Positions 177-22,890 of a DNA stretch of 36,692 nt are shown here, one piece after another. A model generated the notes under the pieces. That model had not been told where the DNA came from and searched no databases. It saw only the letters and a program-made list of their open reading frames with translations. The stretch is from Desulfobacterales bacterium (lineage in GTDB: Bacteria; Desulfobacterota; Desulfobacteria; Desulfobacterales; DTYH01), in NCBI GenBank assembly GCA_012961955.1, contig DTYH01000162.1, positions 1-36,692 on the forward strand, in the 5' to 3' direction. Numbering within the stretch: position 1 is the first letter of the stretch; each line of letters opens with the position of its first letter. Position numbers and translations under genes: made by a program.

Positions 177-1011
177 TTTTCCTCCAAATGCAGATGCTTT
201 CACGCACAGGCACCCTCCCATACCTGCCCATTTGCTGGGAGCTATTGCCCTTATAACGCGCGATGATGATCCTCTCTACTCCAAACCCGGCATCTGCAGC
301 CAACTCCGACAGCAACAAATCAACGGGTATCAGTTCGCCGTGGAATCTGGAATTTCCTATCACCAAAGCCACCCGCGCTCCCGGTTGGCATACTTTGTAC
401 AGCTCTTTAATCGCCAAGTTCATGTCTTCAAAATAGCCCTTGATCATGACCGGGATACGCGGGTTATTCAGGTTTTGACCTTTCAGGTTGTCGAGAACCT
501 CGATTAGGGCCGGATGTTTTACATCGTTTGTGGGGGGCTCGCGGCTTTCAATATGTGACCGGAGAAGGCTGTGCCTAACCTGCTTAAGCTCATTGAAATC
601 CTTACAGAAGGCCAGACATAATTCCAAACTATAAATGCGGCTATAGTCGTAGCGGTTGAGATATGGCGGTGAAGTGATGATTATATCCGCATAATCCTCG
701 ATCTCGCCCGTGAAATGGCGTGCATCGGCCAATTCCACGCAGGCTGTGGGTTTGCTGTCAGCCAAAGGCCGAAGGGCGCCGAAGAGGGGGAGTTGGTGAG
801 GTGGATTTAGGTCTTCGTACATCCGGTTAAGTTGCTCGGCCAAGACCTCCCGCACGGGGGGTATCGGCTTGTTCGGCTTAAGGCGAAGGAATTGGCCATC
901 CTTAGAGGTGTAAGAAACACGTTCTAGGATAGCGAGAAGCCCCAGCAGCAGGAAATCTCGGATATTGTCGTCCCTTTCCTCGAGTATTCTCTCCTTGAAA
1001 AAACATGCGTA
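169..1011 (-). pseudogene. 3' part of an N4/N6 amino-DNA methyltransferase (TSPPY motif), 5' part missing
   Basis: The 228-aa ORF starts at an internal GTG, but the same frame continues upstream as ...FFKERILEERDDNIRDFLLLGLLAILERVSYTSKDGQFLRLKPNKPIPPV-REVLAEQL.... Catalytic motif IIITSPPYLNRYDYSR and VIGNSRFHG are present; no N-terminal SAM-binding motif is visible before the junction with the GT39-like gene. Confidence 0.65.
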
Positions 1012-1870
1012 CCGGGATAAGGATCGTCATCCAGAAACTCTCCCCGTACATCATTCTCCTTCTTTGGAAAAAATCTATTTCTAAAGTCTGGACGATAGCG
1101 CCAAATCCGTCTCCTCCACCCCCTCCTTTATGCAATACCCTAAAAAAACTCTCAAATAACGGATAAAACGGGTTTCCGGTGAGGAGGTAGTTCTTTATAT
1201 ACCATGGAGAGGCAATAAGCAAAGTTATTGTAAAGAACACGAAGCCATATTTCAATGCTGGAAGCTGCCTGCGTGTATCCTTGGCATAATAGTATGCGAT
1301 CATTAAGTTCAGGAAAAACCAAACAATAAGTGCATTATATTTAGTCCCTAAGGCCATTCCCATGAAGGAGGACGATATGATCAGCCATTTTAATCGACCA
1401 TAGCCTGAGCCTCGCCATTTCGTAAAACTAAGGATACTTCCTGTGGTAAAAAAGGTCATTCCAAGATCAACGTAGGCTGAAGTGGATAGCCAGACAACTA
1501 TCGGAGTAGTGATGAAGATTATCATGCCTAATAGTCCCCAGATTCGATCAAACCGTTGTTTCAGATAACAGAATACCAAGAGCCCTGTGCCCAGGCCAAA
1601 AACAAAGTGGATGAACTTGGGGGCTATATCGTTTTTAAAATATAGGGAAACAAGATAGAGAACCTCGATGTTCATTGGATAATACGAGTATTCAGCCCAC
1701 GGGATTTCATAAAACCCGCCATGATTCAGCCAGAGCTTCGGGATGGCCAGATGATGGATCAAGGCGTCTCTTGAAATGGGTGGCGTATCACACAGGAGAC
1801 AAACGATCAGGATATGGAAAAGGAGTACGAAGAGTAATGCATAATAGGCGTATGTGCGCAATCTTAACAT
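1005..1870 (-). pseudogene. 5' part of a GT39/ArnT-like polytopic membrane glycosyltransferase, truncated
   Basis: MLRLRTYAYYALLFVLLFHILIVCLLCDTPPISRDALIHHLAIPKLWLNHGGFYEIPW... with multiple hydrophobic helices. Protein-like character ends near ILIPVRMFFQGE; the remaining residues of ORF 902..1882 are the methylase sequence read out of frame. Likely ATG at 1870 rather than TTG at 1882. Confidence 0.65.
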
Positions 1871-2156
1871 AGAGTCAGGCAATGTCTCAAAAAAACGCCA
1901 TGATTAGCAGGTCTTAAAGGGATAGCTTTTTACAATTTCACCCAATTAAATAGGGGTTCTCCCCCTTGCGAAATTTAACGCCAGAAAATAAGGCAATGAT
2001 CAGGTTCAAGGAGTCGCCAACATATTTTTTTCATGAGGTCAAAGATTTTGTATAGCTAGCATGAACAGCACAGACATAACTCTTGATCGCCCCAGACACA
2101 GCCCGCGTTGACCGAACATTTACCACCCAAATAAAGATGCGAAGACAAAACCAAGA

Positions 2157-2560: not shown

Positions 2561-3202
2561 CTATGCCCTTGCCATTCCAATAATCCATAAGGCATAGAAA
2601 ACGACAAACATCGCGCCCCAAATAATGCCGGCTCTTGGTCTGACCTCGGAAGTTCTCCCGCCGGTCAGGGCATGGGTCAAAAACCCGATTACAGATCCTA
2701 TCCAGCCAAGAAATCCTACTTCAAGTACAACCGTCCAAAAGATATTCGGGCAGGGGTCTTTCTTGCGAGCTGAGGGAGTGGAGATAACCTTCTTTGGTTC
2801 TTGTTTTCCCAGCTCTTTGACCATTAACGATGCAATCTTTTTGTCGCATTTGTTAATCCAATCCTTTCCAGGCGTATAGAAGCTCCTGGCACCAAAAAAA
2901 GCCTGCCGTATGGTACGAAGAGCGATAAGGGCAAGCTGGATATCCCCCTGTTTCTCTGCTATATGCCCAATTTCCCAAAGCCGCTCAACAGATTTGTAGA
3001 CGTACGGATTAGAAGGTGTATACCAGTGCAACGAACGGTCAAAGAATGTGATTGCCCTAATATACTCATGTCTCTGAAGATATTTTTCCCCCAGCCGGTA
3101 GTTCTCCACTGATTTCCAAAATGCATTGAGCCACATGAAGGCAATGGTTGTTATACTAGCACCTAATAAAATAACTAAGTTATCTCGAAGCCTTGATGCC
3201 AT
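2561..3202 (-). CDS. Membrane protein with a TPR-like soluble segment
   Basis: MASRLRDNLVILLGASITTIAFMWLNAFWKSVENYRLGEKYLQRHEYIRAITFFDRSL...; N-terminal TM, TPR-like middle, C-terminal TM helices. Overlaps the end of the upstream GT39 gene. Confidence 0.7.
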   Translation of the reverse strand: MASRLRDNLVILLGASITTIAFMWLNAFWKSVENYRLGEKYLQRHEYIRAITFFDRSLHWYTPSNPYVYKSVERLWEIGHIAEKQGDIQLALIALRTIRQAFFGARSFYTPGKDWINKCDKKIASLMVKELGKQEPKKVISTPSARKKDPCPNIFWTVVLEVGFLGWIGSVIGFLTHALTGGRTSEVRPRAGIIWGAMFVVFYALWIIGMARA

Positions 3203-4796
3203 CCGTTGTCTTTTTCTTTACGAGCTTCTCCTGCCTGTCTCGCTGTCTCCAATTATTGAGCCAGCTTCTGTACAGTTCCTCCTTCTCCTTGTTCCCCTCC
3301 AGTCTGAACATCTTTACTAGGTTGAGAAGCGGGTATTCAAAATCCGGTTTAAGCCTCAGCGCAGCGAGAAATTCTCTTTCAGCCTCTGGGATCCTCCCCT
3401 TGTACCAATACACCACCCCAAGATGATTATGGGGTTCAGCGTAGCTAAGCCTTACCAATGGCGTGAATGTAAACCAGTAAAGGGGGACCAATACAAGTCC
3501 AGTCAGAACAATAGGTTTTAAGGCCTTGTTTTTGCACCAAGTTATGGTGTAGGAGCATCCAGCTCCAGCAAACATAATGATTACAGGAACACCAGGGATC
3601 CGTAGTCGGGAAATAACAAAAAAGATTAACACGGTCAACAGAGAGGAGAGGAAAAAGATATATAGTATCATCAATTCGCGACATCTCTCCAGCGTAGCGA
3701 CAAATCCGATGGCGGACAGAGGGAAGACAATACCAAAGGTCAAAACCCAATGTTTCAGGACTGCGGAATAGTCTTTATTGAAATAATAGTTGAAATAGGT
3801 AGGAATCTCCACATCATTAAAGAAGAAGAGTATCTTTTCAAGGATTAGTTTCAGTTCTTCCAACGGATTATGAACTATAAACTTCAACCCTTTCTTGTAC
3901 CAGTAGATTGAAACCTCTCCCGGAGATAGAGGCCTTTTCATATCCTCTTCGGCCTTCTCTTTGTATTTCAGATAGATGGAGCCGATAAACTTCGATCTTT
4001 CATCAAAGACCGGGCTTGCCCCTTTATGATGACCAAAATAGAAATTGTGTCCACCAGATGGGTTGAGAAAGACAATCTCTCCTGATACGACATAGTTTCT
4101 TGCCACAAAGATTCCTGGAATCACCATCACACCTATTAAGAACCAGATGTATGATCGACACCGAAACGCAAGATTCAATTTATCCTTGCCAAAAGTGAAA
4201 TACAGAAAGAGGAGTACCGGAAACAGTATTAGATTAGGTCTACCCATGATGGCCGCGCCAACACACAATCCTGCGAGCCATGACTTTGCAATACTTTGCA
4301 TATCTTTCATGATAAGCACAATCGATGTAAGGCAAAAGAAGATAACCCACGGAAGAACAATGATCTCAGCATCATAGAATATAAAAGGCCCGTATATGGA
4401 AGCCATAAACCCTGATATAAGTGCAGCCCTTGTCCCAAAGTGGTAACGGGATATCGTGGCGACCAAGCAACAATTTAGGCTGCCTAGTATTATCTGCAAA
4501 AAACGGACCGCAAAAAAATCGATTCCAAAGATCTTGAATATTCCTGCTAGCATATAAGAATATATAGGACTATTGTCGTAAAATATCTCTTTGCCTCCAA
4601 GGATATCCCCGTCTACAATCTTAAGTGCGGCCTTAACATATGCGGCATTGCCCCCTAAAGGTAGGTCAAAGGGAGGATATGATGTATAGCTTATAAGATG
4701 AATCAGACGGATAAGAAACGCCAGGGGAAAGACCAAGAAGATAGGTAGGATACCCGTTCTATAAAAGGGGTTATTAATCTCTTTGGAATGTTCCAT
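3180..4796 (-). CDS. GT39-like (GT-C) membrane glycosyltransferase with C-terminal TPR-like repeat
   Basis: Polytopic; ...YPPFDLPLGGNAAYVKAALKIVDGDILGGKEIFYDNSPIYSYMLAGIFKIFG... is typical of the GT39/PMT_2 N-terminus. C-terminal GRIPEAEREFLAALRLKPDFEYPLLNLVKMFRLEGN is TPR-like. Start assigned to MEHSK. Confidence 0.75.
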   Translation of the reverse strand: MEHSKEINNPFYRTGILPIFLVFPLAFLIRLIHLISYTSYPPFDLPLGGNAAYVKAALKIVDGDILGGKEIFYDNSPIYSYMLAGIFKIFGIDFFAVRFLQIILGSLNCCLVATISRYHFGTRAALISGFMASIYGPFIFYDAEIIVLPWVIFFCLTSIVLIMKDMQSIAKSWLAGLCVGAAIMGRPNLILFPVLLFLYFTFGKDKLNLAFRCRSYIWFLIGVMVIPGIFVARNYVVSGEIVFLNPSGGHNFYFGHHKGASPVFDERSKFIGSIYLKYKEKAEEDMKRPLSPGEVSIYWYKKGLKFIVHNPLEELKLILEKILFFFNDVEIPTYFNYYFNKDYSAVLKHWVLTFGIVFPLSAIGFVATLERCRELMILYIFFLSSLLTVLIFFVISRLRIPGVPVIIMFAGAGCSYTITWCKNKALKPIVLTGLVLVPLYWFTFTPLVRLSYAEPHNHLGVVYWYKGRIPEAEREFLAALRLKPDFEYPLLNLVKMFRLEGNKEKEELYRSWLNNWRQRDRQEKLVKKKTTDGIKASR

Positions 4797-4825
4797 GTAG
4801 TTACCCTTCAAGCAATAATCAACGG

Positions 4826-5204: not shown

Positions 5205-6863
5205 CTATCTTAATCGATATAGCTCTGAGAGGTGGTCATCTTTTCTCAGTTCCTCAAGATCAAAACCTTTTTTTGGATCAAACGGGACATTATTCTCTTT
5301 GTAATACTTGACAATCTTTTTCAGATTAGTTTTGTTTCGCTTATTTTTCTTAACATACATTGCTGAGTTTACGTTTTCAAATATTAGTATCCAGTCAGCG
5401 GAGTAAAAGGGTCTCCTGTCACCGAACATCTTCTTAAAAAGGAGAATGTCAAATCCGTATGTCTCAAGGAGTCTTTCAAACCCTGGATATTGATATTGGA
5501 TCAACATGGAATTGACCAAAATGGTTTCTCCATGCAGATATGTTCGAGTATCAACAAATACCTTGTACCTCGGGTATAGATGGTATATAAGATAACCACC
5601 CCAACCAGATGGATTGTAGAGCCTACCAGAGAGATTCGTGGCTTTCAATATTCTAACGGGAACGTCAGGGTAGTTCTCGATCTGTATTTCATGTTTTAGG
5701 TTGTACGGTATCCTCGTATAGCATTCATTCATCCAGTAGAGACAAGCAATAATCACCCCCGCACCTACCATTATAAAGCTTATAAAGGTTGTCACCCTTG
5801 GCCTTTCCGGCAGCCCTCTATTCTCCACGTAAATGGTTCCGTACTTTACAATTAAGAGTACTGGAACAAAAAGGAGCCATGCAAATCGTGCTGCGGTTAT
5901 AGCCAAATAGATCGTCAAGAGCCCTATCAGTATGTCCCCAATACTCCATCGTATTCTTCTTGTGTATGACCCGATCAATACTGTGAGGAAGCATGCAATA
6001 ATCCCACTTACAAGCCCTTTCATAATGCACGGGAACGCCAACACCCCACCCGTAATGAATCTGAACAACCGTCTCTGCAAACAGATGAAAATTGGTTGCC
6101 ACTCTTGAATGTACTGCTTGACAACAGGGGTTGCTCCAAAAACGTATCCGTATATATGGTATCCGTAAGGATTGATAATGGACCCTATTAGAAATAACAG
6201 GAAGAGAACGTTAGGATTGAAAGGGAGTTCCGTGATTCTGAACCAACTGGTTATACCACGAACCTTCGTAACCATGCGGGCAAATGACAGTATTGCAACA
6301 ATGACTCCTGCAAACAACATAAAAGGGTGTAAATTAATCCATAAAACACATAGAAGAAAAAAGATTGCGTAATCAACATGCTTGAATCTCTTACGCGTTC
6401 TCGTAAACCACGTGTAGACGAAGGTAAAAAATAGAATTGAAAACAGTTCCGGCCTTATTAGGTAACGGGTTCGGAATAGATATGCCGTGACCAGAAGTAC
6501 AAGAAGTGCAACAAGGAACCGGTTTGAGATTTGAAATGCCGTCCAAAACACGAATGATAGAGCAGCCATCATCAACAAGACACGCATAACACGAAGCCCA
6601 GTAAACCCGAATTCGTTGTAAACAAGATATAGTACAATTTGCGAAAGCCATTCACAAAGTATGACGGGTTTTCCCTTGGTTGTATACGAGAACGGATCAG
6701 ATATAGGGAGGGTATAGTCGTTTTGAACTATGTATTCACCCATCTTAAGGTGAAGCCAAATATCACTGGAAAAGATCGGCTTGTAGAAGATTCCGGAAAG
6801 GCTTAATATGATTAGGATAAATACCAGAACTTCTTTCTTGCTCAGTGAGACTGATCGGCTCAT
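5205..6863 (-). CDS. Polytopic membrane protein, GT-C-like, function unknown
   Basis: 552-aa ORF with about a dozen hydrophobic segments and a conserved-looking N-terminus (FYKPIFSSDIWLHLKMGEYIVQNDYTLPISDPFSYTTKGKPVILCEWLSQIVLYL), similar in style to lipid-linked-sugar GT-C proteins. Confidence 0.7.
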   Translation of the reverse strand: MSRSVSLSKKEVLVFILIILSLSGIFYKPIFSSDIWLHLKMGEYIVQNDYTLPISDPFSYTTKGKPVILCEWLSQIVLYLVYNEFGFTGLRVMRVLLMMAALSFVFWTAFQISNRFLVALLVLLVTAYLFRTRYLIRPELFSILFFTFVYTWFTRTRKRFKHVDYAIFFLLCVLWINLHPFMLFAGVIVAILSFARMVTKVRGITSWFRITELPFNPNVLFLLFLIGSIINPYGYHIYGYVFGATPVVKQYIQEWQPIFICLQRRLFRFITGGVLAFPCIMKGLVSGIIACFLTVLIGSYTRRIRWSIGDILIGLLTIYLAITAARFAWLLFVPVLLIVKYGTIYVENRGLPERPRVTTFISFIMVGAGVIIACLYWMNECYTRIPYNLKHEIQIENYPDVPVRILKATNLSGRLYNPSGWGGYLIYHLYPRYKVFVDTRTYLHGETILVNSMLIQYQYPGFERLLETYGFDILLFKKMFGDRRPFYSADWILIFENVNSAMYVKKNKRNKTNLKKIVKYYKENNVPFDPKKGFDLEELRKDDHLSELYRLR

Positions 6864-8580: not shown

Positions 8581-10992
8581 CTACATAATTATTTGATTTT
8601 TAGATCGTTTAACAACACTCCTATGTGTCCTTAGAAGATACCATCCAGTCAATGTCATATAGAGAATAACAGCCACGATGGATATCCATTTCCCTACCTG
8701 AAATGTTAGTGGCACGTATTCAACTCGAATCCTGTGATGTCCTCCTGACAGCGGGATGGCACGAAGGATGTAGTTTGCAGGCATAACGTCATACCTTTTT
8801 TGGGTGCTCCCCGGCAAGGCCTTGGCACGCCATCCGTTGCTATATACATCAGTGATCAACAGGATTGAGGGATGAGGGAGATCAGCTTCAATAACAAGAT
8901 AGTCTGTGGATGACGCAACAACCGTTGCAGCCCCCTTTTCCTTTGATATAACGGGTTCAGGGTTCGGGTATGCTTCAAGGATCACCTTTTTGCACGGATC
9001 GAACGAGGCATCCTCCATCATATTGAGAATACGATTACGGTCCTTTATGACAATATAATCCTGAATCAACTGAAGATGGGGCATAATGTTCTTCTCCTCT
9101 ATAATTCCGATCTTGCCTCCTGAAGGAATAAATGCAAAGCGGCATCTTAGCATCCTGTACAGTGGATGAAATCGAGAAAACTTAACATATTGAGTCGCCT
9201 CGTCAGGAGAATACCCCTGAGTAAAGGTCATGAACTCTGCGTAACGTCTCAACACGACAGAATCGTAACCCCAAATATCCTCCATGCGTATAATCATCGC
9301 ACTATTCGGCCTCTCGAGGTTCAGAATCCTGTAATCACCAGGATGTTTCGACAAGATTCTTCTGATCTCAGGGACCCGAATAGATTCAATATCAAACGTC
9401 AAAAGAGAAACCTTTCCAAAGATAAAGATTTCCAGCATGGCCAGCAGCGCAGTAGCATAGACCATTTTTTGGAAAAACATCGAAAGAAAGAGGATAAGGC
9501 ATAATAGGAGACAGGTACCAGCTGAAGTCATCAAAGAGTTCGATGCAAAGTAACCTGCCTCTTGAATAAATTGGGGATTCGCGCAGTATCTTGCCGGAAG
9601 ATATGATTCATGTGTGGAATGTACTGCATGCATGATTTCCTGCCACAGGCCTGCCGAGTCTGTCGAGTTTGCTGAATACCGAATATATGCCCCCACAGTT
9701 CCAACAAATAGACCAAAAACCAGAATCGCGAGGATCGTTCTTCGACGAATATCCCTCCGTCTTATAAGGTTATCAAGACCGATGCCTGCAAGCATTGTGA
9801 TGAAAAGAGATGCCTGAAAGATAAACTTTGAGTAGCCACGAAACCTATCGAAGCCGGGGATCCAGGTATAAAGAAATCCAAATAATGGCGTGTATGCACC
9901 CAAGGCAAGCAAAACCAGGAACACAACCATGCTCAGTGAAAACCGACGGGCATTTCGCTCTCCGTAGATACAACCATATGTTGCTAGAATGAGTCCTGTC
10001 ATGCCTACAAAGATCGACATCTCCCACAGATACCAGCGTCCCCAATAGGGTAAGTCCGTACCATTCCCGAAGAAGTACGGCGCCAGAAATGTGATAAGGT
10101 TTTCAGGAGGAAATGAAAACCTAGAGGCAAATTCAAAGCTAAGGCCACGGCCTCGAATACTCTCTGCTGCTACTTGAATCCCGGTCAATACTTGAACTGC
10201 CCCTAAAGCACTGGCGCCAGCGTACATACTGAGAAACCCGAGACCTATTACTGTCCGTTTATCAGCCGTGAAAACGCAAAACCCACAATAGATCGCACCG
10301 GCAATGGCAGTGAAGAACACATGCTGCGGATATCCGGCAAGTACCTGCATAGTGACGGCAAACATGCCAGTGATACACCATCCCAATGAACGTTTCTCAA
10401 ATAATCCATCGATTGAGAGGAAGACAAGGGGTGCCCATGTCATGGTGCAAAGATGAGGGAGGTGGCCAGCTTGAACATGCATGAAGTAGGCTCCGCAGAA
10501 CATTAACAAGACCGACGAAAGGAGGGAAGCTAGTAGGTGTAACCCGCGATGGGAGGACCACAGGTACATAAAAATGCCGATAAGAAATACATGGAGCGCT
10601 ATACTGAAATTAATCGCCTTTGAGAGTGGCAATATCAGATAGAGAACGTTCGGAGGGTAGAGCAATGCCGACTGAAATCCTCCGAGAAAGGGGGTTCCTG
10701 AAAAGATGTGTGGATTCCATAGTGCAAGATTTCCGTGCTTTAGATGACTGAACCCAAACTCCCTCCAGTAGGCAAATTGCTCAAATACGTCAGCATGCGC
10801 CCTTGACAAGACAATTCCCCCAGTTGAAAAGAGAACGTTAGCAAACATAGCTATCGTTATGCCCAGGAGAAAAGTGATTGGAAGAAGGAGTGAAATCCTG
10901 GGCTTAACCCCCTGCCCCCTGTCTTTTACCGAGTACAATCCGAACATCTTCGTTTTTTCGTCCTTGCAACAGCTCAGTATTGTCTTCATCAC
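8581..10992 (-). CDS. YfhO-family membrane protein
   Basis: 803-aa polytopic ORF: ...HADVFEQFAYWREFGFSHLKHGNLALWNPHIFSGTPFLGGFQSALLYPPNVLYLILP... plus a C-terminal beta-rich domain (...LLITDVYSNGWRAKALPGSTQKRYDVMPANYILRAIPLSGGHHRIRVEYVP), hallmark YfhO architecture. Confidence 0.85.
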   Translation of the reverse strand: MMKTILSCCKDEKTKMFGLYSVKDRGQGVKPRISLLLPITFLLGITIAMFANVLFSTGGIVLSRAHADVFEQFAYWREFGFSHLKHGNLALWNPHIFSGTPFLGGFQSALLYPPNVLYLILPLSKAINFSIALHVFLIGIFMYLWSSHRGLHLLASLLSSVLLMFCGAYFMHVQAGHLPHLCTMTWAPLVFLSIDGLFEKRSLGWCITGMFAVTMQVLAGYPQHVFFTAIAGAIYCGFCVFTADKRTVIGLGFLSMYAGASALGAVQVLTGIQVAAESIRGRGLSFEFASRFSFPPENLITFLAPYFFGNGTDLPYWGRWYLWEMSIFVGMTGLILATYGCIYGERNARRFSLSMVVFLVLLALGAYTPLFGFLYTWIPGFDRFRGYSKFIFQASLFITMLAGIGLDNLIRRRDIRRRTILAILVFGLFVGTVGAYIRYSANSTDSAGLWQEIMHAVHSTHESYLPARYCANPQFIQEAGYFASNSLMTSAGTCLLLCLILFLSMFFQKMVYATALLAMLEIFIFGKVSLLTFDIESIRVPEIRRILSKHPGDYRILNLERPNSAMIIRMEDIWGYDSVVLRRYAEFMTFTQGYSPDEATQYVKFSRFHPLYRMLRCRFAFIPSGGKIGIIEEKNIMPHLQLIQDYIVIKDRNRILNMMEDASFDPCKKVILEAYPNPEPVISKEKGAATVVASSTDYLVIEADLPHPSILLITDVYSNGWRAKALPGSTQKRYDVMPANYILRAIPLSGGHHRIRVEYVPLTFQVGKWISIVAVILYMTLTGWYLLRTHRSVVKRSKNQIIM

Positions 10993-11062: not shown

Positions 11063-13378
11063 TCATTCCTCACCTCTTGCTCCTCGCCTAAATACCCTTT
11101 TCCGTCCCCAGATGATAAACCAGAGAGAACAAACTAATGTCAACAGAGATATTATTCCTCCTATCCGAAAAGACCGTGACACGAATCGCAATTCTATCTC
11201 ATGCCTTCCATGCTCCAGTGGAATAACACGAAACAAGTAATTGCCGCAAAGGATTGGCACCTCTCTTCCATCTACCTCTGCTTTCCAACCAGGATAGAAT
11301 ATCTCGCTTAAAACGAGATAGCACGATTGATTGGCTGAGGTCCTAACTCGAATGCTCTCATTATCATAATATATAATAGAGCATGAACCCTCAAAATCCT
11401 CCTCGTCTTTCTCCATCAGCACGAATTCTTGATACCTGGGTTCAAGTACCACCATCTTAAGGGGATCAAACTCATCGCTCGTCATAAAATCGAGGATTTC
11501 ATTAGATGGTCTGACTACCGCCTTCCTGACTAGGATTGCCCTTGGAAGGTAGGTATCCAGCACAGCTATGTGTTTACCCTCCACTACATACCTTAGGTTT
11601 AGCATCTTCAGAAACCTGTGATTGTGGTCACTAATAAAAGAAGTTGTCACCACATGTTTTTCGGCCGGTAGCCCCTGACTCGCCTCCAAGTAAAGAATAT
11701 ATCGCTTAAGGATAAGCGGGTCGTATCCACCTATACATGGAAAGCGATAGAGGAGACCATCATTCGGTAAAAATATGCTTTTTGATATCAGTACCCTGCC
11801 TGGTCCAGTGTCGTATCTGATTCGGTCGATGAGAGCCTGCTTTTCTTCGGAAGTTGTGAATCTGTAAGGCTTGATGAACTGGAGAGAATATAGCCCCATA
11901 TCCACCATTACCATAGCCAAGACCGCAATCTTGAAGAGGGTTTTGCTTATCTTTTTTTTGTGGAACAGTATCAGGAGCACAACTGACACAAGAAAGAGCA
12001 ATGCAGACCTGTTAACTGAAAAGACAATCTTTTCAGGAATCCTTTGGACACAGGCAGGATCTATGGGCTCCTCAGCAAACGTCTTGAATAGGTAGAAAAA
12101 AAATTTATAAGGAAAGAGATGCATGGTAAGAGTGAACAAAAGGAGAATGATCCCTGCGATAATAAGAAATTCCCTTAAACCTTTTTTGAATGTTAAAGAC
12201 TCCTCTGCGTTCTGAAGGGAAATTCCTGACAATACAGCAACGCCAAAAACATACAGAAATAAGATCTGGGCAGGAACACGAAGGCTATGAAATCCTGGTA
12301 ATCTATAGAAAAGAGGATACAATGGATTATACTTACCCAACGATAGAAACAAGGCCAAAAGAATAAGCCCGGCAAAGAAACGTTGAATATTACGGAGGTC
12401 ACGTGCACTTGAGGTTGAGGCGAATATGAGACAAAGCGGGAATACGCCGACATAACCACACGTCTCCCAAAAATACCAATCCCTGGGGCTCAACCAGTAG
12501 GTTTGATCAACAGTGTTTCCAAAGATGTCAGGGATCAAAAACGACAGGAACATCTTGGGGTGGAGAGAGTCAATAGTTGCAAACCAGCAGCTTACTCCCC
12601 TAGCCCGAGTAGATAGCCTTACAAATTCCAGGGTTGGGAGGATTTGAATAGCAGCAATGGCAAAACCTGCGGATACTACGACTACTGAGCCAATGAATAT
12701 TCTAAGTGCGTTATCGATGTTTCGAACTCTGATGGAAACCCCTATGTGGAGAATCCCGAATGCTAACAGACCCAAGATTGTATAGAATGCAATCTGAGGG
12801 AATCCTCCAAGGATCTGAATTCCAAGGAATAGACCTGCAAATACTGCCCAGCCGAAGGATCTTGTCTTAAGGAATTTATAAAAAAAACAAAATATGAGAG
12901 GTATCCAGACATAATTTTGGACAAATGAGAGATGACCGGCATAAAGGTGCGCCATAAAAAACCCATTATAGGTAAAGATAATGGCAGCAAGGAAAGCGCC
13001 CCACTTATCTACAGAAAGAGAGCGCACAAAGGCATACATGAATAGTATGCCGAGGATGCAGTGGAATACGATGGTAAAACCGTAAGCGTATTCAGCTGGA
13101 ATGAGATAGAACAGGAAGCCGAACGGATAGAATACCGAGGCTTGAATATTTGCAATGAGGGGTGTTCCAGAAAATTGGTATGGATTCCAGAGGGGAAGCG
13201 TGCCGTGAACAAGGACATAATCCCGTACAAACTTCTTTACGGGATAAAAATACAGTACATAGTCTGAGCCAAAAAGAGCTCTTCCTGTAAGAATTACCTT
13301 ACCAAAAAAGATCAATACAGATATGGCGAGGAGAAAGATGGGAACCATTTCGAATAATCTTTGTCTGGCTACACTCAT
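11063..13378 (-). CDS. YfhO-family membrane protein (tandem paralog)
   Basis: ...LFGSDYVLYFYPVKKFVRDYVLVHGTLPLWNPYQFSGTPLIANIQASVFYPFGFLFYLIPAEYAYGF...; C-terminal YLVLSEIFYPGWKAEVDGREVPILCGNYLFRVIPLEHGRHEIELRFVSRSFRIG. Confidence 0.85.
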   Translation of the reverse strand: MSVARQRLFEMVPIFLLAISVLIFFGKVILTGRALFGSDYVLYFYPVKKFVRDYVLVHGTLPLWNPYQFSGTPLIANIQASVFYPFGFLFYLIPAEYAYGFTIVFHCILGILFMYAFVRSLSVDKWGAFLAAIIFTYNGFFMAHLYAGHLSFVQNYVWIPLIFCFFYKFLKTRSFGWAVFAGLFLGIQILGGFPQIAFYTILGLLAFGILHIGVSIRVRNIDNALRIFIGSVVVVSAGFAIAAIQILPTLEFVRLSTRARGVSCWFATIDSLHPKMFLSFLIPDIFGNTVDQTYWLSPRDWYFWETCGYVGVFPLCLIFASTSSARDLRNIQRFFAGLILLALFLSLGKYNPLYPLFYRLPGFHSLRVPAQILFLYVFGVAVLSGISLQNAEESLTFKKGLREFLIIAGIILLLFTLTMHLFPYKFFFYLFKTFAEEPIDPACVQRIPEKIVFSVNRSALLFLVSVVLLILFHKKKISKTLFKIAVLAMVMVDMGLYSLQFIKPYRFTTSEEKQALIDRIRYDTGPGRVLISKSIFLPNDGLLYRFPCIGGYDPLILKRYILYLEASQGLPAEKHVVTTSFISDHNHRFLKMLNLRYVVEGKHIAVLDTYLPRAILVRKAVVRPSNEILDFMTSDEFDPLKMVVLEPRYQEFVLMEKDEEDFEGSCSIIYYDNESIRVRTSANQSCYLVLSEIFYPGWKAEVDGREVPILCGNYLFRVIPLEHGRHEIELRFVSRSFRIGGIISLLTLVCSLWFIIWGRKRVFRRGARGEE

Positions 13379-13394
13379 TGTGTTATATCGTTAA

Positions 13395-14852
13395 CTAAGA
13401 GGTCGGCCTCGGCGTAAAATAGAAATATCTCCCCACCTTGTTTAGCCGGCAATACACAAAAACGGATTGTATAAGAGAGTCCGATGGCCTCTCAACCTCT
13501 CTGTTCGGATACTGATCCTCCCGTAACACGATAAGGTCAGAATACCTTTCCTTAATCTTATTTAACATCGGCTTGACACTCAGGACTCCACTATTCCACA
13601 AAATCTTATATGGATAAAGATCATTCATGACCGCATCCTGTTGAAATTCAAAAATAAATTGAGAACAGACAAGATTAAGGATTTTACGATTTCCAGGTCG
13701 AAAGTCTCTGATTTCCCTTTTTACCTGATCAGAATACCTGACCATCCCCAGATCGTTCTCAGATTTTGTAAAAGAATAGTCAGGTCTTTTTGCAAACGCA
13801 AATTCCACTACTAAAGAGATGCTGAGCAGCCCAAGAAGTACAAGAAAAAACGTAGATGTCTTCGCCGAATAGATCCTTTTTGTAAGAAAAACCAGCCAAA
13901 ACAGGCTCAAAAAAAATATATCGCACTTGCCCCCCTACCTTGCCCACCGTTATTATCAGCACCGATACAGAAAAAATAAAATACATAAAATAAGGGGACT
14001 CTATGATAATCCTCTACCGTTTCGATCCGAAAAGGTAAAATGAAGGCGTAATTACAGAAAACAAAAAAGACAAAAAAGAAGCTGCTTAAGCATATGGGCC
14101 CAATTTCTAATAAAATATTCCCAGAACACCGGATTTCTCGGAACAACAAAGACACTGAACCAAAACCCGTCCCCCCAGTAATAATGAGCAAAGATGGCAA
14201 AAAGTGTGGACAAAAAAAGACGACGTCCCAAACAGGAAAGCATCTGCCCGTACTCTTATAAGGAGATAGGAAAGACGTGAACCTGTTGCGGTCATGAAGG
14301 ACTCTTTGCAAGTAAATCCGACAAAACAACACACAAGGAAACAAGGATGCTTTTCCAAGGTGTCTCATTGTTCTTTTCGGCCAAGATAACGGCTAGCCCA
14401 GAAAAAAAGAACCATGGAATCATTTCTAAAATAAGCGGTGCGGGAAACGATCGCGCAATTGAGAAAAAAAGCAAGCCACAGCAAGTATGGAGACAAGGAG
14501 ATTCTCGTGAAGTTTGTAAGGAAAAAGGAGGTAAAATGCCGACAGAATCATGAAAACCATGGCGACTTTTCTACCTGTAATGAACTTGTTATTCTGTTGC
14601 TGGGGGGAAGCCAGCCACCAAGAAGTGATAAGCAGGTGTGTAATTAGTTAATATAAATTAGGGATTACTGTAATTAGCTGGACCGTATAAGTTCTTACCC
14701 TTTTGTATTGCGCTAATTGTACAGAGGTTAAGAGTTTCAAAAGTTGGGTCAAAAGGAGCGGAAAGGTGATCCCTTGCCCTACAAAACACCCTGCTTAAGG
14801 AAGTGATAATGACTATTATATAGACAACCAATACAATTCTATCGGCTGGCAT
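13395..14852 (-). pseudogene. GT39-like membrane glycosyltransferase pseudogene with many frameshifts/stops
   Basis: Collinear fragments in three frames: MPADRIVLVVYIIV...SAIQKGKNLYGPANYSNP* / FILTNYTPAYHFLVAGFPP / MVFMILSAFYLLFPYKLHENLLVSILAVACFFS / LAVILAEKNNETPWKSILVSLCVVLS / LFAIFAHYYWGDGFWFSVFVVPRNPVFWEYFIRNWAHMLKQ / YFFEPVLAGFSY / SLFWLVFLTKRIY...GRYFYFTPRPTS*. The order matches a single GT39-like protein. Confidence 0.75.
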
Positions 14853-15606
14853 CTGTATTCCCTTTCCACTTTTGAAGGATCAACAAAAAAGACACCCCGA
14901 AAGGAAAACTCAGGAATTGAAGACAACAAATCTCAGAGGTAAATAGGAAGGTTAGCAGAGCATTAAGCCATCGCGGTATACGCATAAAAAAATCAGAGCG
15001 GACAACCTGTTTCTTTGAAAAGAGTCTTTTTAACTTTCTCACTACCAGGATTGGGAGAATAAGAGCTGTGTTATAATAGCTGCTCTTTATCACCTTACAG
15101 TTGAGTTGATCAACCTTCTCAAGCAACCGATTCCGCGTGTAGCGTCGTCTGTGGTGCAGGGCGTCATCATGAACGCTCCACAACACGTTAAAGGCTGGTA
15201 CCGTGATGATGATATGCCCCCCAGGTTTGCAAACCCGCACCAACTCCTTTATTAGGAAAAAATCATTGTCAACGTGTTCGAGGACGTCAAGGCACGTGAT
15301 TGCTGAGAAACTATTATTCCTGAATGCAATGGGTGCATTGGCATCTGATCTTACAACAAGTTTTAGGTCTCTTCGACCCAAGAATTGGATTGCCTCTGGT
15401 GAGAGTTCCATACCGTATGCTGTTCCAAAGCCTGACAGGAGTTTCAGTATGATTCCGGTGCCACACCCGATGTCGAGTATGTTTCTCTCCTTAGTACCCT
15501 TTGCATAGAGTCGTCTTAGGATACTTTTTATCAGAAACTGTTTCCCAACAAACCACCAATGGGTTTGTTCGATCTGGTACATAATTGCGTATTCATCGTT
15601 TTCCAT
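14839..15606 (-). CDS. Class I SAM-dependent methyltransferase (Methyltransf_11-like)
   Basis: ILDIGCGTGIILKLLSGFGTAYGMELSPEAI ... FSAITCLDVLEHVDNDFFLIKELVRVCKPGGHIIITVPA. Start assigned to MENDEYAIM; longer alternative start at 15651. Confidence 0.85.
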   Translation of the reverse strand: MENDEYAIMYQIEQTHWWFVGKQFLIKSILRRLYAKGTKERNILDIGCGTGIILKLLSGFGTAYGMELSPEAIQFLGRRDLKLVVRSDANAPIAFRNNSFSAITCLDVLEHVDNDFFLIKELVRVCKPGGHIIITVPAFNVLWSVHDDALHHRRRYTRNRLLEKVDQLNCKVIKSSYYNTALILPILVVRKLKRLFSKKQVVRSDFFMRIPRWLNALLTFLFTSEICCLQFLSFPFGVSFLLILQKWKGNTDASR

Positions 15607-15733
15607 AGATTTATGAGTTATACCCCCACTCCCGACCAACAAGCGTCCCAATGGTAACTGTTTGACCGGTGAGGTTTTTTCTTTGGCCTGTGGACAGTTA
15701 CCCTCACGTTTAACTGTACCGGAAAGACTAGCC

Positions 15734-15819: not shown

Positions 15820-16563
15820 TCATAAATGATAATAATTCGCAAAATAGTAGTAATATACACGAAAGATTTCAATAAGTGTTCCTATTGAGTCTCTACTCAC
15901 TCTCACCTTAGAATCGAAGGAATGATACCAATCAACAGGTATTTCTCTTATAGTGTATCCGAGTTTCTGGGCAAGAAAGATAATCTCTGCATCATAGCCC
16001 CACCTTTCAATCCTTGATCGAGAAAATATGTCAAAAGCAGCCTTTCTTTCAAAGCCTTTTAACCCGCATGTAATATCAGAGACTCTCAAGCCAAGGACGA
16101 GTTTTGCGAACCTTCTAAATACCTCCCCCAGAAACTCCCGAAGCGGATTCTCACGCACCTTAAAAGACGACCCAGGGAGATGCCTGGATCCGATCACAAC
16201 GGGGGTACTGGCTTCCAGATGTTTTAAACATCTGCCGATAAACTTGACCGGTACAGCAAGATCGGCATCAGTAAAAATGACGCATCTCCCGAGCGCATCC
16301 AGAACGCCCGTTCTTACTGCATACCCTTTCCCACGGTTTACATGACAGCTTATCAAGCGTACATGCGAATTTCTATTGACAATACTGTTACAGATAGCTC
16401 CTGTGGAATCGGTGCTGCCATCATTGACAAGTATCATTTCATACCTCAACTGTAATCTTCTCAAATAGTCATCTAAGATCTCAAAATTGGGTTCTATACA
16501 AACTGACTCATTGTAGAGGGGAATTACAATAGACAACTCCGGATAGTATTGTTGCAGGTACAT
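15820..16563 (-). CDS. GT2-family glycosyltransferase, dolichyl/polyprenyl-phosphate hexose synthase (ALG5/DPM1-like)
   Basis: LSIVIPLYNES...YEMILVNDGSTDST...RGKGYAVRTGVLDALGRCVIFTDADLAVPVKFI...VIGSRHLPGSSFKVRENPLREFLGEVFRRFAKLVLGLRVSDITCGLKGFERKAAFDIFSRSRIERWGYDAEIIFLAQKLGYTIREIPVDW. Confidence 0.88.
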   Translation of the reverse strand: MYLQQYYPELSIVIPLYNESVCIEPNFEILDDYLRRLQLRYEMILVNDGSTDSTGAICNSIVNRNSHVRLISCHVNRGKGYAVRTGVLDALGRCVIFTDADLAVPVKFIGRCLKHLEASTPVVIGSRHLPGSSFKVRENPLREFLGEVFRRFAKLVLGLRVSDITCGLKGFERKAAFDIFSRSRIERWGYDAEIIFLAQKLGYTIREIPVDWYHSFDSKVRVSRDSIGTLIEIFRVYYYYFANYYHL

Positions 16564-16565
16564 GC

Positions 16566-18659
16566 TTATTGGAGCCCTCTTGTGGTCATAAATCTAATCA
16601 GTTTTTTCTGTTTTGGATTTAGCGATAGGGATTTCTTAAACGCTTCTTTTGCCTCGCTACGTCTACCAATTTCCAAATACATCAGCCCCAAATTATTATA
16701 AGTACCAAATTCTTTTGGATTGGCAGCGATCGATTTCTTGAATGCCTCAATTGCCTTATCAATATCTCCTATCTTAGCATAATAGTATCCCCATGTATCG
16801 TATAGCATGCCAACGTCCGTTGCATTCCTTGAATAGATTCTCAATTCAGCCAACGCCTCTTTATACATCTTCATGTCAGTGTACAAAACGGCAAGGTCTC
16901 TGTGGAGGACTTTATCATTAGTGCCAATACTTGAGGCCTTTCTTAGAAGTCCTATTCCTAGTGATTTTTGCCCCATAAATACCATCTCTCTCCCCATCTT
17001 AAAGAAAAAGTAACACGTAACCGATCTATTCATATAGTCTCGATAAAACGAGCCATTCATGCTCTCTGCTACATAATAAGGCCACGGATTGGTCTCTTCC
17101 TGAAGTGCTGCCTCGAACCTCTCAGGAGTTACAGCCCTGCATGTGAGGCCGTGTGGAATCAGGTCAAATCCTCGGTCTAAGGCAACCCTATCGTTAAATA
17201 ATGCCATATAGACATTCTTCCTGGTCCTTACTAATTCTTCTTCTATGATGTACCTCAGCTCTTCCCACTTGCCGAAAAAAGCGTGTCCCCCTTTGTACAG
17301 GAATGGCATCTTAAAAAACAGATTGTGACGGTCGTATATCTGGAGGTCAGGCCGAGCATTTTCCACCAGTCTGAGATAGGTGATTGGAAAGAGTATGTTA
17401 TCCCCCGCAATAATCAGGGTAGCGCCTCCTGAAGCACTTCTTAATATATTTATCCCATATTCGTACGCAGTGTAGTTTGTATGTTGGTCATTCCTGTACA
17501 GATTCATGCTTAGCAGAAGTACTGGTAAGAGTAAAAAACCGGGCTTAAGGCACAGTATCCAGATACGGTTCAAGGGTTCACAAGCGAATTGGTATTTCAA
17601 TATATTTGCCATTCCCTTGCCAATAAGAATTGCCACTACGATCGAGGTCGGAATCTCGAAAGGGGTGATCTCTAAAGAGATGATATTCAGAAATATGGTA
17701 TAAACCAGATCAAAAAGGATTATAAGGGCCCAAAATATCTTCCACTTCAAGCCTTTCTCACTGATCCATCCAACGGCTGCAAAGATCCAGAATATGTTGA
17801 ATTGTAGGTACATCTCTCTGACGGCCCCCAAAAACCGTGTGCCATATGTTGCCCAGGGCCTTCCAAACACATAAGCGTGTCGATGCGCGCTGGCACTCAC
17901 GTGGTTGATGAATCGCCACAACGTATCAGGATCTCCCCAGTGAATGGCAGCCCCTGCATGCGTTCTAATTGGAAGATAGATGTAGACAGAAAGGCCAACG
18001 ACAAAGAAAAAGGTTAACAGTAAAATATCTCTAACATTCAACACGGTTCTGCGGTCCGATAATATAATAAAGGTAAATACCGCAGGAGCTAACATTATGA
18101 TCTGCAAGTGGTTTCCAAAACTGAGCCCAACTATGAATGCAAACACAAGTAGCCTATCGCGGGATATGGTCTCATGCCACCAGCAGAGCAGTGTTATGAT
18201 AAGAGCAACAAAAAAGGCGTGGAAAGTGTAGACCTCCGCGCAGCATGCTTGTGACCAGAGGTTTACAGAAAAGGCAAGCAACAGCGATGCAGAAAATGCG
18301 GCCACCTTAGAACCTGTGCTTTTGATAATAATCCTGTAGGTCAGCCAGACGGTAAGGCTAGCAAAAAAAGCGGACATGACGTTCAAACGTAAGGCCACAT
18401 TTCCAACAGGAATCAGCGCGAATATCTTGCCGATCAAGGCATATAGGGGATAGCCTGAGTTGTGGGCATTACCAAGGCAAAAAGCGGATGCGATGAATTC
18501 ACCACTGTCGCCCGCATAGACGGTCGGGGACGTGGTAAATAAGTATGTTAGGAAACTAATTTCGAAAACCGACAGACCTATCAAGGACTCGTGGTCTCTA
18601 TGTTCGTTAGTCTCAGTGTATAACATCATCCCCGCCCGCCTCTCTTGATCGCTCGTCAT
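16566..18659 (-). CDS. DUF2723 (TMEM260-like) membrane protein with C-terminal TPRs; putative GT-C glycosyltransferase
   Basis: SPTVYAGDSGEFIASAFCLGNAHNSGYPLYALIGKIFALIPVGNVALRLNVMSAF ... LWSQACCAEVYTFHAFF is the DUF2723 signature; TPRs in ...YDTWGYYYAKIGDIDKAIEAFKKSIAANPKEFGTYNNLGLMYLEIGRRSEAKEAFKKSLSLNPKQ. Confidence 0.85.
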   Translation of the reverse strand: MTSDQERRAGMMLYTETNEHRDHESLIGLSVFEISFLTYLFTTSPTVYAGDSGEFIASAFCLGNAHNSGYPLYALIGKIFALIPVGNVALRLNVMSAFFASLTVWLTYRIIIKSTGSKVAAFSASLLLAFSVNLWSQACCAEVYTFHAFFVALIITLLCWWHETISRDRLLVFAFIVGLSFGNHLQIIMLAPAVFTFIILSDRRTVLNVRDILLLTFFFVVGLSVYIYLPIRTHAGAAIHWGDPDTLWRFINHVSASAHRHAYVFGRPWATYGTRFLGAVREMYLQFNIFWIFAAVGWISEKGLKWKIFWALIILFDLVYTIFLNIISLEITPFEIPTSIVVAILIGKGMANILKYQFACEPLNRIWILCLKPGFLLLPVLLLSMNLYRNDQHTNYTAYEYGINILRSASGGATLIIAGDNILFPITYLRLVENARPDLQIYDRHNLFFKMPFLYKGGHAFFGKWEELRYIIEEELVRTRKNVYMALFNDRVALDRGFDLIPHGLTCRAVTPERFEAALQEETNPWPYYVAESMNGSFYRDYMNRSVTCYFFFKMGREMVFMGQKSLGIGLLRKASSIGTNDKVLHRDLAVLYTDMKMYKEALAELRIYSRNATDVGMLYDTWGYYYAKIGDIDKAIEAFKKSIAANPKEFGTYNNLGLMYLEIGRRSEAKEAFKKSLSLNPKQKKLIRFMTTRGLQ

Positions 18660-18783
18660 GGGGGCAGATCAGGATCTGCACGCAAGGACCGTTGGAAGTA
18701 GTTGCAATCTACTATCTTTACAGGTGTGACTTTATCTGTTATTAACGAAATAATGTGGTCATTACGAAGGAAAATCATGCACC

Positions 18784-20679
18784 ATGAAAGAGTTGGCCCA
18801 AACTGGATGCGTTATTAACACAAAAAAGGACTCATTACAAAGGAAAAGAGTATCTACCAAGGACCTCCTGACCGTCTTGGCTCTTGTTGCTGCATCGTTT
18901 CTAATATATGCGAACACGCTTCAGGGAGATTTTGTATGGGACGATAGGGCCCTGTTTGTGGAGCATTTCAACGTCTGGCAATGGAAGAATCTCAAGCAGT
19001 TAGTCACCTCTCAGGATAACCTGTTTGTAGGCCGATATACCGGCTACTACCGGCCATTTCCCAACCTGACCTTCCTCCTGGACCGATATCTCTGGGATCA
19101 AAACCCCGCAGGGTATCACCTGACCAATATAATCTTCCATGTCCTTGCAACACTCTGTGTATACTGGATGGCTGTTATCCTTTTTAAGCAACGGGGGCTC
19201 GCATTTTTGGGCGCGTTATGTTTTGCATGGCATCCCGTGCATACGGAGGATGTTGCCTGGATCAATGGTCGAAACAACGTTATCTCAAGCCTTTTCTACA
19301 TCCTTTCTTTTATTCTCTACGTTAAGTACGTAAAAAATGAAAAATCTAAGGCCAGGTATTACTGGCTATCCCTTCTTTCCTTTTCGCTCTCTCTTTTTAG
19401 CAAAGAGTATGCCCTCACATTTCCTCTTATTGTGGCTTGCCGCGAATGGACTCTCCGGTGTACAAGCTTAAAGGAAAGGGTTTCGAGAATTGCCAATAGA
19501 ACATCCCCATACATTATTATTATCCTGTTATATCTCCTTGTAAGGTCGATGGTACTCCCGGCCCATGGTATAAAATTCATGCACTGGGATACTTTTTGGA
19601 TGAGGGTTCTTACGCTCCCTAAGACGTTTGTGATTTATCTAAGGCTACTCATTCTTCCTTCTAATCTCTCGGTCCATCACGAGACCACGCTTATTACATC
19701 GATACTTGACCCTATGCTCTGGATAGGATTGGCGGTTTCTGCGTGTTATGGTGCCATACTCTATTATGTGTATTCATACTCAAAAGCATCTTTTCTGATG
19801 CTTGCATGGATCATTCTTACACTGACACCGGTCCTTAACATTATTCCGCTCTCAGATGATGGCAGATTCGTAGCTGAGCGCTATCTCTATCTACCGTCAG
19901 CGGGTTTTTCCATCATCGTAGGTCAGTTGGTCGTACGCTTCTGGCATATATGGCGCAGCCGAAAGGAAAAGCTGGTATCCGTCCTTCCTTTTCTTTTCGG
20001 ATGTCTGTTACTCGAATGGTACGCATTCGGGACCCTCAACAGAAACCTATCCTGGCGAAGCGAACTTGCCTTATGGAAAGACGCAGTAGCCAAAAGGCCC
20101 ATCTCCTACAGGCCGTACTTCAATCTCGCTGTTGCTTACAGGAATGCAAAAAAATATGAGGCTGCTGTTGAGATGTTTGAAAGGGCCTATTGGATGGCCT
20201 CGAGGCCCGAAGACAGAGGGCTTATCCTTAGCAATATCGCTAATGTTTATTACGCCATGAAGGTATACGATATTGCTGAGGCACGCCTTAAGGAAGCCAT
20301 TTCCCTGTCACCAGGGAATGATGGGATTTACAATCTGCTAGGAAACGTGTATTTCATGGAACATAATTTTACAAAGGCGCTTGAACAGTACATGAAGTCC
20401 GTGGAGATTAATCCAACAAATAAGGATGCTCTGATAAATATTGGTATGACATATTTTAAGATGGGAAAGATAAACGAAACAATTGAACATCTTCAAAGGG
20501 TTAAATCTATGATTCCCGATGACGGGAGGCTCTATTACTATTTAGGTTCGGCCTATGATATGAATGGCATGTATAATGAGGCTGCAATATGTTATGCTAT
20601 CTATCTGAAGCTTTTACCATATGATCTAAACCATCAACGGATTGCTATCCGTCTGAGGAGAATGGAAGCAGCCCCTTGA
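18784..20679 (+). CDS. TMTC-like polytopic membrane protein with C-terminal TPRs; putative O-glycosyltransferase
   Basis: LIYANTLQGDFVWDDRALF ... YYRPFPNLTFLLDRYLWDQNPAGYHLTNIIFHVLATLCVYWM ... ALCFAWHPVHTEDVAWINGRNNVISSLFYILSFILY ... LFSKEYALTFPLI, closely following the TMTC family pattern; four or more TPR motifs at the C-terminus. Confidence 0.85.
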   Translation: MKELAQTGCVINTKKDSLQRKRVSTKDLLTVLALVAASFLIYANTLQGDFVWDDRALFVEHFNVWQWKNLKQLVTSQDNLFVGRYTGYYRPFPNLTFLLDRYLWDQNPAGYHLTNIIFHVLATLCVYWMAVILFKQRGLAFLGALCFAWHPVHTEDVAWINGRNNVISSLFYILSFILYVKYVKNEKSKARYYWLSLLSFSLSLFSKEYALTFPLIVACREWTLRCTSLKERVSRIANRTSPYIIIILLYLLVRSMVLPAHGIKFMHWDTFWMRVLTLPKTFVIYLRLLILPSNLSVHHETTLITSILDPMLWIGLAVSACYGAILYYVYSYSKASFLMLAWIILTLTPVLNIIPLSDDGRFVAERYLYLPSAGFSIIVGQLVVRFWHIWRSRKEKLVSVLPFLFGCLLLEWYAFGTLNRNLSWRSELALWKDAVAKRPISYRPYFNLAVAYRNAKKYEAAVEMFERAYWMASRPEDRGLILSNIANVYYAMKVYDIAEARLKEAISLSPGNDGIYNLLGNVYFMEHNFTKALEQYMKSVEINPTNKDALINIGMTYFKMGKINETIEHLQRVKSMIPDDGRLYYYLGSAYDMNGMYNEAAICYAIYLKLLPYDLNHQRIAIRLRRMEAAP

Positions 20680-20747: not shown

Positions 20748-21122
20748 CTAGCTACTGCTGCCGGTTGAACCATCATCAACAACACTGAAGGTATAATCAC
20801 CACTGGCATGTTTGGCAGTTATTGTAAATACATCAGCGCCAGAGGCTGCAACATGTGTTTCAACATTCGCAGTGCTCCTGAAACCACCTAGAGACAAAGC
20901 GGCATCGTCTATTGAAACACCTGGATGATCCGTTAGATAGGCCATTGCTGCTGTGTAGGCGTTCTTCACATCTGACTGGGCCGCCTTTTCATACGCCCGT
21001 TTCCGATAGCTGATAAAGTTCGGTATAGCAATGGCTGCCAGGATACCGATGATGGCAATAACGATCATCAGCTCAATCAGGGTAAAACCTTTTTCGTCCT
21101 TTTTTCTGAGTCTTTGTAACAT
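20748..21122 (-). CDS. pilA: Type IV pilin (PilA-like)
   Basis: MLQRLRKKDEKGFTLIELMIVIAIIGILAAIAIPNFISYRKRAYEKAAQSDVKNAYTAAMAYL...: G/FTLIEL prepilin peptidase motif. GAGGAGGGG RBS just upstream of the ATG at 21122. C-terminal tail VVDDGSTGSSS. Confidence 0.93.
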   Translation of the reverse strand: MLQRLRKKDEKGFTLIELMIVIAIIGILAAIAIPNFISYRKRAYEKAAQSDVKNAYTAAMAYLTDHPGVSIDDAALSLGGFRSTANVETHVAASGADVFTITAKHASGDYTFSVVDDGSTGSSS

Positions 21123-21239
21123 ATTAAGTCCCCTCCTCAGTAATTTTTGTTTATGTTTACAAATTGGCGCCAATCAAATCTTTATCATTGCTTACCCGTC
21201 AACCACCTCCCCTCTTACTTGATATTTGTCAAATAAAAA

Positions 21240-21254
21240 GCAAAAATCGTACCG
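21240..21254 (-). promoter_or_regulatory. Candidate sigma-54 (-24/-12) promoter for the pilin gene
   Basis: Minus strand CGGTACGATTTTTGC: GG and GC separated by 10 nt as in TGGCACGNNNNTTGC; about 118 bp upstream of the pilin ATG and correctly oriented. Confidence 0.5.
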
Positions 21255-21488: not shown

Positions 21489-22890
21489 CTATCGATCTCT
21501 GGTCTCCGACCCTTTATCCCCAATCCCCAGCTTTTCCATTCGGTACCTTAGTGACCGAAGGCGTATACCGAGAAGCTCAGCAGACTTCTGTTTCGATCCA
21601 CCGGTTATCTCCAAGGCACTTGTAATATACCCCCCTTTTTCTATTTCAGCCAGCACCTCATCCAGGTTTATGCCAGCAGGGGTTACTTCAAGCCGTGGAC
21701 GGCTCTCTTTTACCACCCCTTTCCGATACAGAGAGAGCCAGGCTTTCAGGCAATATAATTTGGTAGTAGAGAGCGCCACACTTCGCTCAATCATATTTTC
21801 AAGCTCCCGAACATTGCCCGGAAAATCGTACCTACTGAGAAGATCGAGAGCATAAGACGAGAGTTTGTTTATCGATTTCCCGATCTCATTCGAGTACTTT
21901 TCCAAAAAATGTTGAGCGAAAGCGGGGATATCTTCTTTTCTCTCTCTCTCAAGGGCGGGACCCTGATATGGATAACATTCAATCGATAATATAAGTCTTC
22001 TCTAAAGTTACCTGCGATAACCTCATCTTCCAGGTTCTTGTTTGTGGCCGATATAATCCTGATATCCACACCAAGATCGTGTGTTTCTCCTACCGGCTTG
22101 AATGCCTTCTCCTGAACTACCCGAAGTATCTTTATTTGAATAGAAGGGGAAAGATCACCTATTTCATCCAAAAAAACAGTGCCACCATTTGCCAGCTCAA
22201 ACAGACCCCTCTTATCCTCAAGTACTCCAAGTAAACGCACCTTTTCTGTGACCAAAGAGCTCGATCTCCATCAGGGTTTCAGGTATTCCCCCACAGTGGA
22301 TAATCACAAAGGGTTTATCCTTTCTGTCACTGTTATTGTGGATGGCCCTAGCGATCAATTCTTTTCCAGTTCCGCTCTCCCCACTGATCAATATATTGGC
22401 CTTGGTGCTAGGCTACCTGCCTGATCATACCGTATATCTTCATCATCTCAGGGCTATTGCCTATAATAGTCCCAAAATGGCATGTCTCCTTTAACCTAGC
22501 GTCTATGACCTTCTTTTCGTGTTCGAGAGTCCCCCTCTCCAGTGCATTCTTGATCGTCTCTCTCAACTCATTAACGTTGAAGGGCTTTGGAATAAAATCG
22601 TAAGCTCCGTCACGTACTGCTTCCACAGCAGCCTCAGTCGTGGCAAAAGCCGATATCATTACTGCTACAACCTCTGGCTGGAGCTTTTTTGCAGCCCGTA
22701 ACACTTGTAGCCCATCTATCTTACGCATCCGTATATCACAAAGCACAAGATCAAAAACGTTTTGCTCAAGCAGATGGATAGCCTCCTCTTCGTCTCGTGC
22801 ACAAACCACTCCATACCCTTCCCTGGTTAGCATAAGTTCTAAGAATTCCCTCATGCTCAAATCGTCGTCTACGATTAATATATTCGGCAT
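21489..22890 (-). pseudogene. NtrC-family sigma-54-dependent response regulator (receiver-AAA+-Fis HTH), frameshifted
   Basis: Receiver [27 protein letters not shown]...; AAA+ pieces [23 protein letters not shown] and GAFT/ELANGGTVFLDEIGDLSPSIQIKILRVVQE; ALDLLSRYDFPGNVRELENMIERSVAL; Fis-type HTH SALEITGGSKQKSAELLGIRLRSLRYRMEKLGI. Split over several frames by indels near 22411, 22229, 21940 and probably 21757. Confidence 0.85.

Follow-up and report, generated by a model that had tools for sequence, protein, structure and literature searches.

A pilin-adjacent gene cluster for TMEM260-like and TMTC-like GT-C proteins in a Desulfobacterales bacterium, a candidate O-glycosylation locus

GT-C enzymes use polyprenyl-phosphate sugars, and the donor of the Pseudomonas pilin arabinosyltransferase TfpW is lipid-linked. 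In humans, the protein O-mannosyltransferase TMEM260 belongs to CAZy family GT117 and TMTC1-4 to GT105; polyprenyl-phosphate-sugar use by both families is described in excerpts of PMC11292533, and motifs M1-M7 of human TMTC1-4, the reference set for our comparison, are given in excerpts of PMC7801869. In Pseudomonas, TfpO and TfpW each act on the pilin with which they are associated, modifying it (PMC11841053, in part), and in Streptococcus mutans the substrate gene cnm is co-transcribed with pgf genes (PMC5856776, in part); these systems are precedents for an acceptor and its enzyme being encoded together.

The window analysed in this study, a stretch of 36,692 nucleotides from a Desulfobacterales bacterium, can be compared with each of these systems (Table 1). 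Its DUF2723 protein resembles TMEM260 in having a homologous GT-C domain, the GDSGE motif and C-terminal TPRs, but, unlike the human enzyme, it is bacterial and its gene adjoins a pilin gene. A second GT-C protein shares with TMTC1-4 the DD, YRP, KE and ERxxY motifs and the GT-C plus TPR layout, whereas it has no match to PF08409 and no recognisable SHKS (M2) or DW (M5). Similar to TfpW, which was compared by description, GT-C genes are sited here with a pilin gene; different from TfpW, the TMEM260-type and TMTC-type enzymes bear TPRs and belong to a multi-enzyme cluster. The likeness to the S. mutans Pgf system (PgfS-PgfM1-PgfE-PgfM2) lies in a PgfS-like GT2, a YfhO-family pair with weak resemblance to PgfM1 and PgfM2, and a possible substrate gene alongside. 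The window proteins, however, score far under the NCBIfam cut-offs, the TMEM260-like and TMTC-like enzymes are extra, and no PgfE epimerase was seen in the window cluster.

A sequence-only reading of this DNA had placed a GT2 gene 2 bp from the DUF2723 gene, with the TMTC-like gene divergent from the latter (124 bp between starts) and a pilin gene next to them. The ORF table, Pfam and alignments recovered all of these genes, spacings and motifs at the same positions, and the neighbouring pilin proved the most informative feature. The locus is larger than that reading had described: two YfhO-family enzymes, a methyltransferase and more GT-C-like genes extend it down to approximately position 900.

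Table 1. Features of the locus, in positions of the window.
Feature	Position	Strand	Remarks
PMT-type GT-C protein	902..1882	-	relative in L013
PMT_2-type GT-C protein	3180..4811	-	in the downstream extension
GTC5205, polytopic membrane protein, possible GT-C	5205..6863	-	no Pfam match; syntenic in L013 and L014
YfhO1, YfhO-family GT-C protein	8581..10992	-	weakly PgfM2-like
YfhO2, YfhO-family GT-C protein	11063..13378	-	weakly PgfM1-like
Class I SAM methyltransferase	14839..15651	-	conserved neighbour of GT2
GT2	15820..16563	-	ORF table
TMEM260-like DUF2723 (PF11028) GT-C protein with C-terminal TPRs	16566..18659	-	697 aa
GDSGE motif, residues 50-54	18498..18512	-	candidate catalytic D51/E54; same as human TMEM260
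TMTC-like GT-C protein with TPRs (residues ~443-618)	18784..20679	+	631 aa
DD motif, residues 53-54, TMTC motif M1	18940..18945	+	published TMTC motifs
Pilin ORF	20748..21173	-	68 bp beyond TMTC-like stop
Type IV pilin (N_methyl)	20748..21122	-	probable ATG 21122; Ser-rich C-terminus DDGSTGSSS
Possible sigma-54 -24/-12 element (GG-N10-GC) upstream of pilin	21239..21254	-	two-mismatch pattern match
PilR-like sigma-54 response regulator	21489..22890	-	three ORFs, frame disrupted

The strongest result is the non-random linkage of DUF2723 and TMTC-like genes to pilin genes. Among 396 Desulfobacterota genomes, DUF2723 is present in 44 and TMTC-like GT-C domains in 208, often several per genome, in a census that scored few TMTC-like candidates per genome. 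A pilin gene lies within 1.5 kb at nine of 29 DUF2723 loci and 11 of 26 TMTC-like loci, percentages that are not unbiased rates because hits in the TMTC and pilin searches were ordered by their similarity to profiles partly built from pilin-linked members. The corresponding control counts are one of 30 for YfhO loci and none of 30 for PMT_2 loci (Fisher p 5e-3 to 5e-5; the Fisher and binomial values treat the rows, which are related, as independent, and several loci, the window's own included, are shared between linkage sets), and the density of pilin-like genes (0.0032 per kb in 44 genomes) leads to an expectation of approximately 1.1-1.4%. Wider stretches around TMTC-like genes (about 7 to 9 kb per side, some ended by the contig) contain a pilin in nine of 20 higher-scoring and six of 20 lower-scoring cases. 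In the reverse direction, 19 of the 30 top pilin loci have a TMTC-like (11) or DUF2723 (8) gene within 1.5 kb, and at a twentieth, L233, a fragment is possibly derived from the TPR end of a TMTC. The linked GT-C gene is usually found immediately 3' of the pilin. Pilin linkage recurs in separate DUF2723 clades and, independently, for TMTC: 24 of the 52 rows of the DUF2723 tree are pilin-linked, with seven label changes, and one clade of 12 rows is entirely so. Neither pilin nor TMTC occurs near the nine rows of clade L053-L061, which include the top PF11028 scorers, and the DUF2723 family therefore has other roles too.

Gene order is conserved in related MAGs, so the arrangement is not due to chance. 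L013 and L014 keep the order pilin, TMTC, DUF2723, GT2, methyltransferase, YfhO2, YfhO1 and GTC5205; most of it is kept in L015, in which TMTC is divergent, and L016 retains pilin, DUF2723, GT2 and both YfhO genes without TMTC and methyltransferase. The linkage of DUF2723, TMTC-like and GT2 genes in the sequence-only reading is conserved in close relatives but not general across the phylum. The data do not support a single fixed three-gene system, considering the absence of TMTC from L016, the presence of DUF2723 and TMTC within 5 kb of each other in only eight of 52 rows, and the common occurrence of TMTC-like genes alone. DUF2723 and TMTC-like genes are mostly alternatives at pilin loci, and the three-gene set is therefore lineage-specific.

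Several transmembrane segments are predicted by hydropathy in the GT-C proteins. The TMEM260 homology of the DUF2723 protein is clear: in addition to TPRs it matches PF11028 ("TMEM260-like") at 3.1e-33 (115.5 bits against a curated cut-off of 24.2), and phmmer aligned its residues 28-451 to the solved TMEM260 chain 9rql (4.2e-36), with its GDSGE (G50-E54), invariant in A1, falling on the GDSGE of that chain. For the TMTC-like protein, TPR models are the only Pfam matches; PF08409 (TMTC_DUF1736) gave no match at E<=1, and matched one of nine relatives (E 0.92). The "TMTC pattern" consequently rests on motifs and architecture. DD (53-54), YRP (89-91), KE (207-208) and ERxxY (365-369) are present. 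Of the published set, M1, M4, M7 and the YRP of M2 are therefore kept, M6 is probably present, and M3 is altered (RNN instead of RxD), whereas an alignment inspected by eye showed neither the SHKS of M2 nor the DW of M5. The protein keeps most of the published TMTC motifs and the GT-C plus TPR layout but is matched by no Pfam TMTC model. A TMTC GT-C domain profile matched no solved structure. AlphaFold, given alignments of four sequences, produced models too weak for a three-dimensional comparison of the active site (mean pLDDT 60.8 and 59.1). Among the Foldseek matches of the DUF2723 model are oligosaccharyltransferase GT-C chains, at low TM-scores, and those listed for the TMTC-like model are mostly TPR proteins; these matches were set aside as active-site evidence.

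The GT2 protein (247 aa; PF00535, 9.9e-28) has no predicted transmembrane segment by hydropathy and carries DAD at residues 99-101 and a conserved HSFDSKV. It is likely a polyprenyl-phosphate-sugar synthase, because dolichol-phosphate mannose synthase and enzymes of the ArnC type are among its relatives of solved structure. Its best NCBIfam match is PgfS, at 80 bits far below the cut-off of 500. Polyprenyl-phosphate-sugar synthesis, as suggested previously for this protein, is therefore plausible from its resemblance to such synthases and to PgfS, whereas mannose as the sugar is not supported; nothing in the analysis bears on sugar identity.

We consider it fairly probable that the locus encodes a pilus-linked, polyprenyl-phosphate-sugar-dependent O-glycosylation system, with the pilin as the likeliest acceptor; in its action it would be comparable to TfpW of Pseudomonas, and in gene layout it is similar to Pgf of S. 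mutans. The cytoplasmic GT2 would load a sugar onto polyprenyl phosphate, and a flippase would bring this lipid-linked donor to the periplasmic side; a search of the genome for a GtrA-type flippase gave none, which counts against this proposal. Judging from homology, the TMEM260-like and TMTC-like GT-C enzymes would then place the sugar on Ser/Thr residues of an exported protein, acting through D51/E54 and D53/D54 in their first periplasmic loops, and the TPRs may help to hold the substrate. The conserved linkage points to the major pilin encoded alongside as the most likely acceptor, although the window's TMTC-like gene converges on the pilin gene and does not follow it, which counts against this assignment. 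The two YfhO-family enzymes probably lengthen the glycan or add more sugars, and the methyltransferase may cap it.

It is unlikely that the GT-C enzymes instead make or decorate a polysaccharide of the cell surface (LPS O-antigen or exopolysaccharide), with the pilin a mere neighbour in a region for surface structures. The clustering of several GT-C genes with a methyltransferase does suggest a multi-sugar product, teichoic acid glycosylation is a known role of YfhO-family enzymes, and many TMTC-like genes lie away from pilins; such a role, however, fits poorly with a pilin linkage that recurs in separate lineages, usually directly 3' of the pilin, and that YfhO (1/30) and PMT_2 (0/30) loci hardly share. 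Somewhat less likely still is a general O-glycosylation of exported proteins in which the pilin is at most one substrate, comparable to TMTC/TMEM260 acting on animal adhesion proteins and Pgf acting on Cnm and WapA. TPR domains suit protein substrates (excerpts of PMC11292533) and Pgf has more than one surface protein as its target (excerpts of PMC5856776), but a general system would not need to be placed repeatedly next to a pilin. It is very improbable that these membrane proteins lack transferase activity and serve the pilus as accessory factors in the manner of TfpY, whose relatives each go with particular pilins and help with assembly (PMC11841053, in part), considering that both window GT-C proteins and their close relatives keep the catalytic acids (GDSGE, DD) named in the sequence-only reading and that a candidate donor synthase gene is only 2 bp away.

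More tentatively, the favoured role in pilin glycosylation may extend beyond this locus: across Desulfobacterota, TMEM260-type and TMTC-type enzymes may form a widespread class of O-glycosyltransferases for type IV pilins that has so far gone undescribed. Searches of an open-licence library, assessed from titles and abstracts, gave no paper evidently describing a link of TMEM260 or TMTC to pilins. If the proposed class is real, two animal O-mannosyltransferase families would have bacterial relatives that serve a filament protein, and these homologues would gain a likely physiological acceptor. Enzymes with links to human disease could then be studied in simple bacterial models, and a new kind of pilin glycosylation would be added for a phylum in which electron transfer and syntrophy are the reasons for work on pili.

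Against NCBIfam, the YfhO pair reached 25 bits for PgfM1 (cut-off 1400) and 16-22 bits for PgfM2 (cut-off 1500). Between YfhO2 and the methyltransferase, two ORFs at 13395-14368 have no Pfam match (at E<=0.01 for one and E<=1 for the other) and are possibly the remnant of another gene; in L013 the YfhO2 and methyltransferase genes are almost adjacent.

The pilin start at 21122 is accompanied by a Shine-Dalgarno-like GGAGGGG. The Ser/Thr content of GT-C-linked pilins shows a weak upward trend that is not significant (p=0.07), which counts against the favoured reading. Prepilins beside TMTC-like genes in L110, L112, L115, L117 and L133 have a non-PilA-like N-terminus, FTLIEI or FTLIEL followed by (I/V)AVL. 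The sigma-54 match near the pilin is weak evidence and not clearly above chance, with 22 pattern matches in the window against a shuffle mean of 14 and five of 100 shuffles reaching 22. The PilR-like regulator ORF is intact in L015 (459 aa) and L016 (469 aa), and its three-frame split in the window is, as judged from the sequence, the product of frameshifts or assembly errors.
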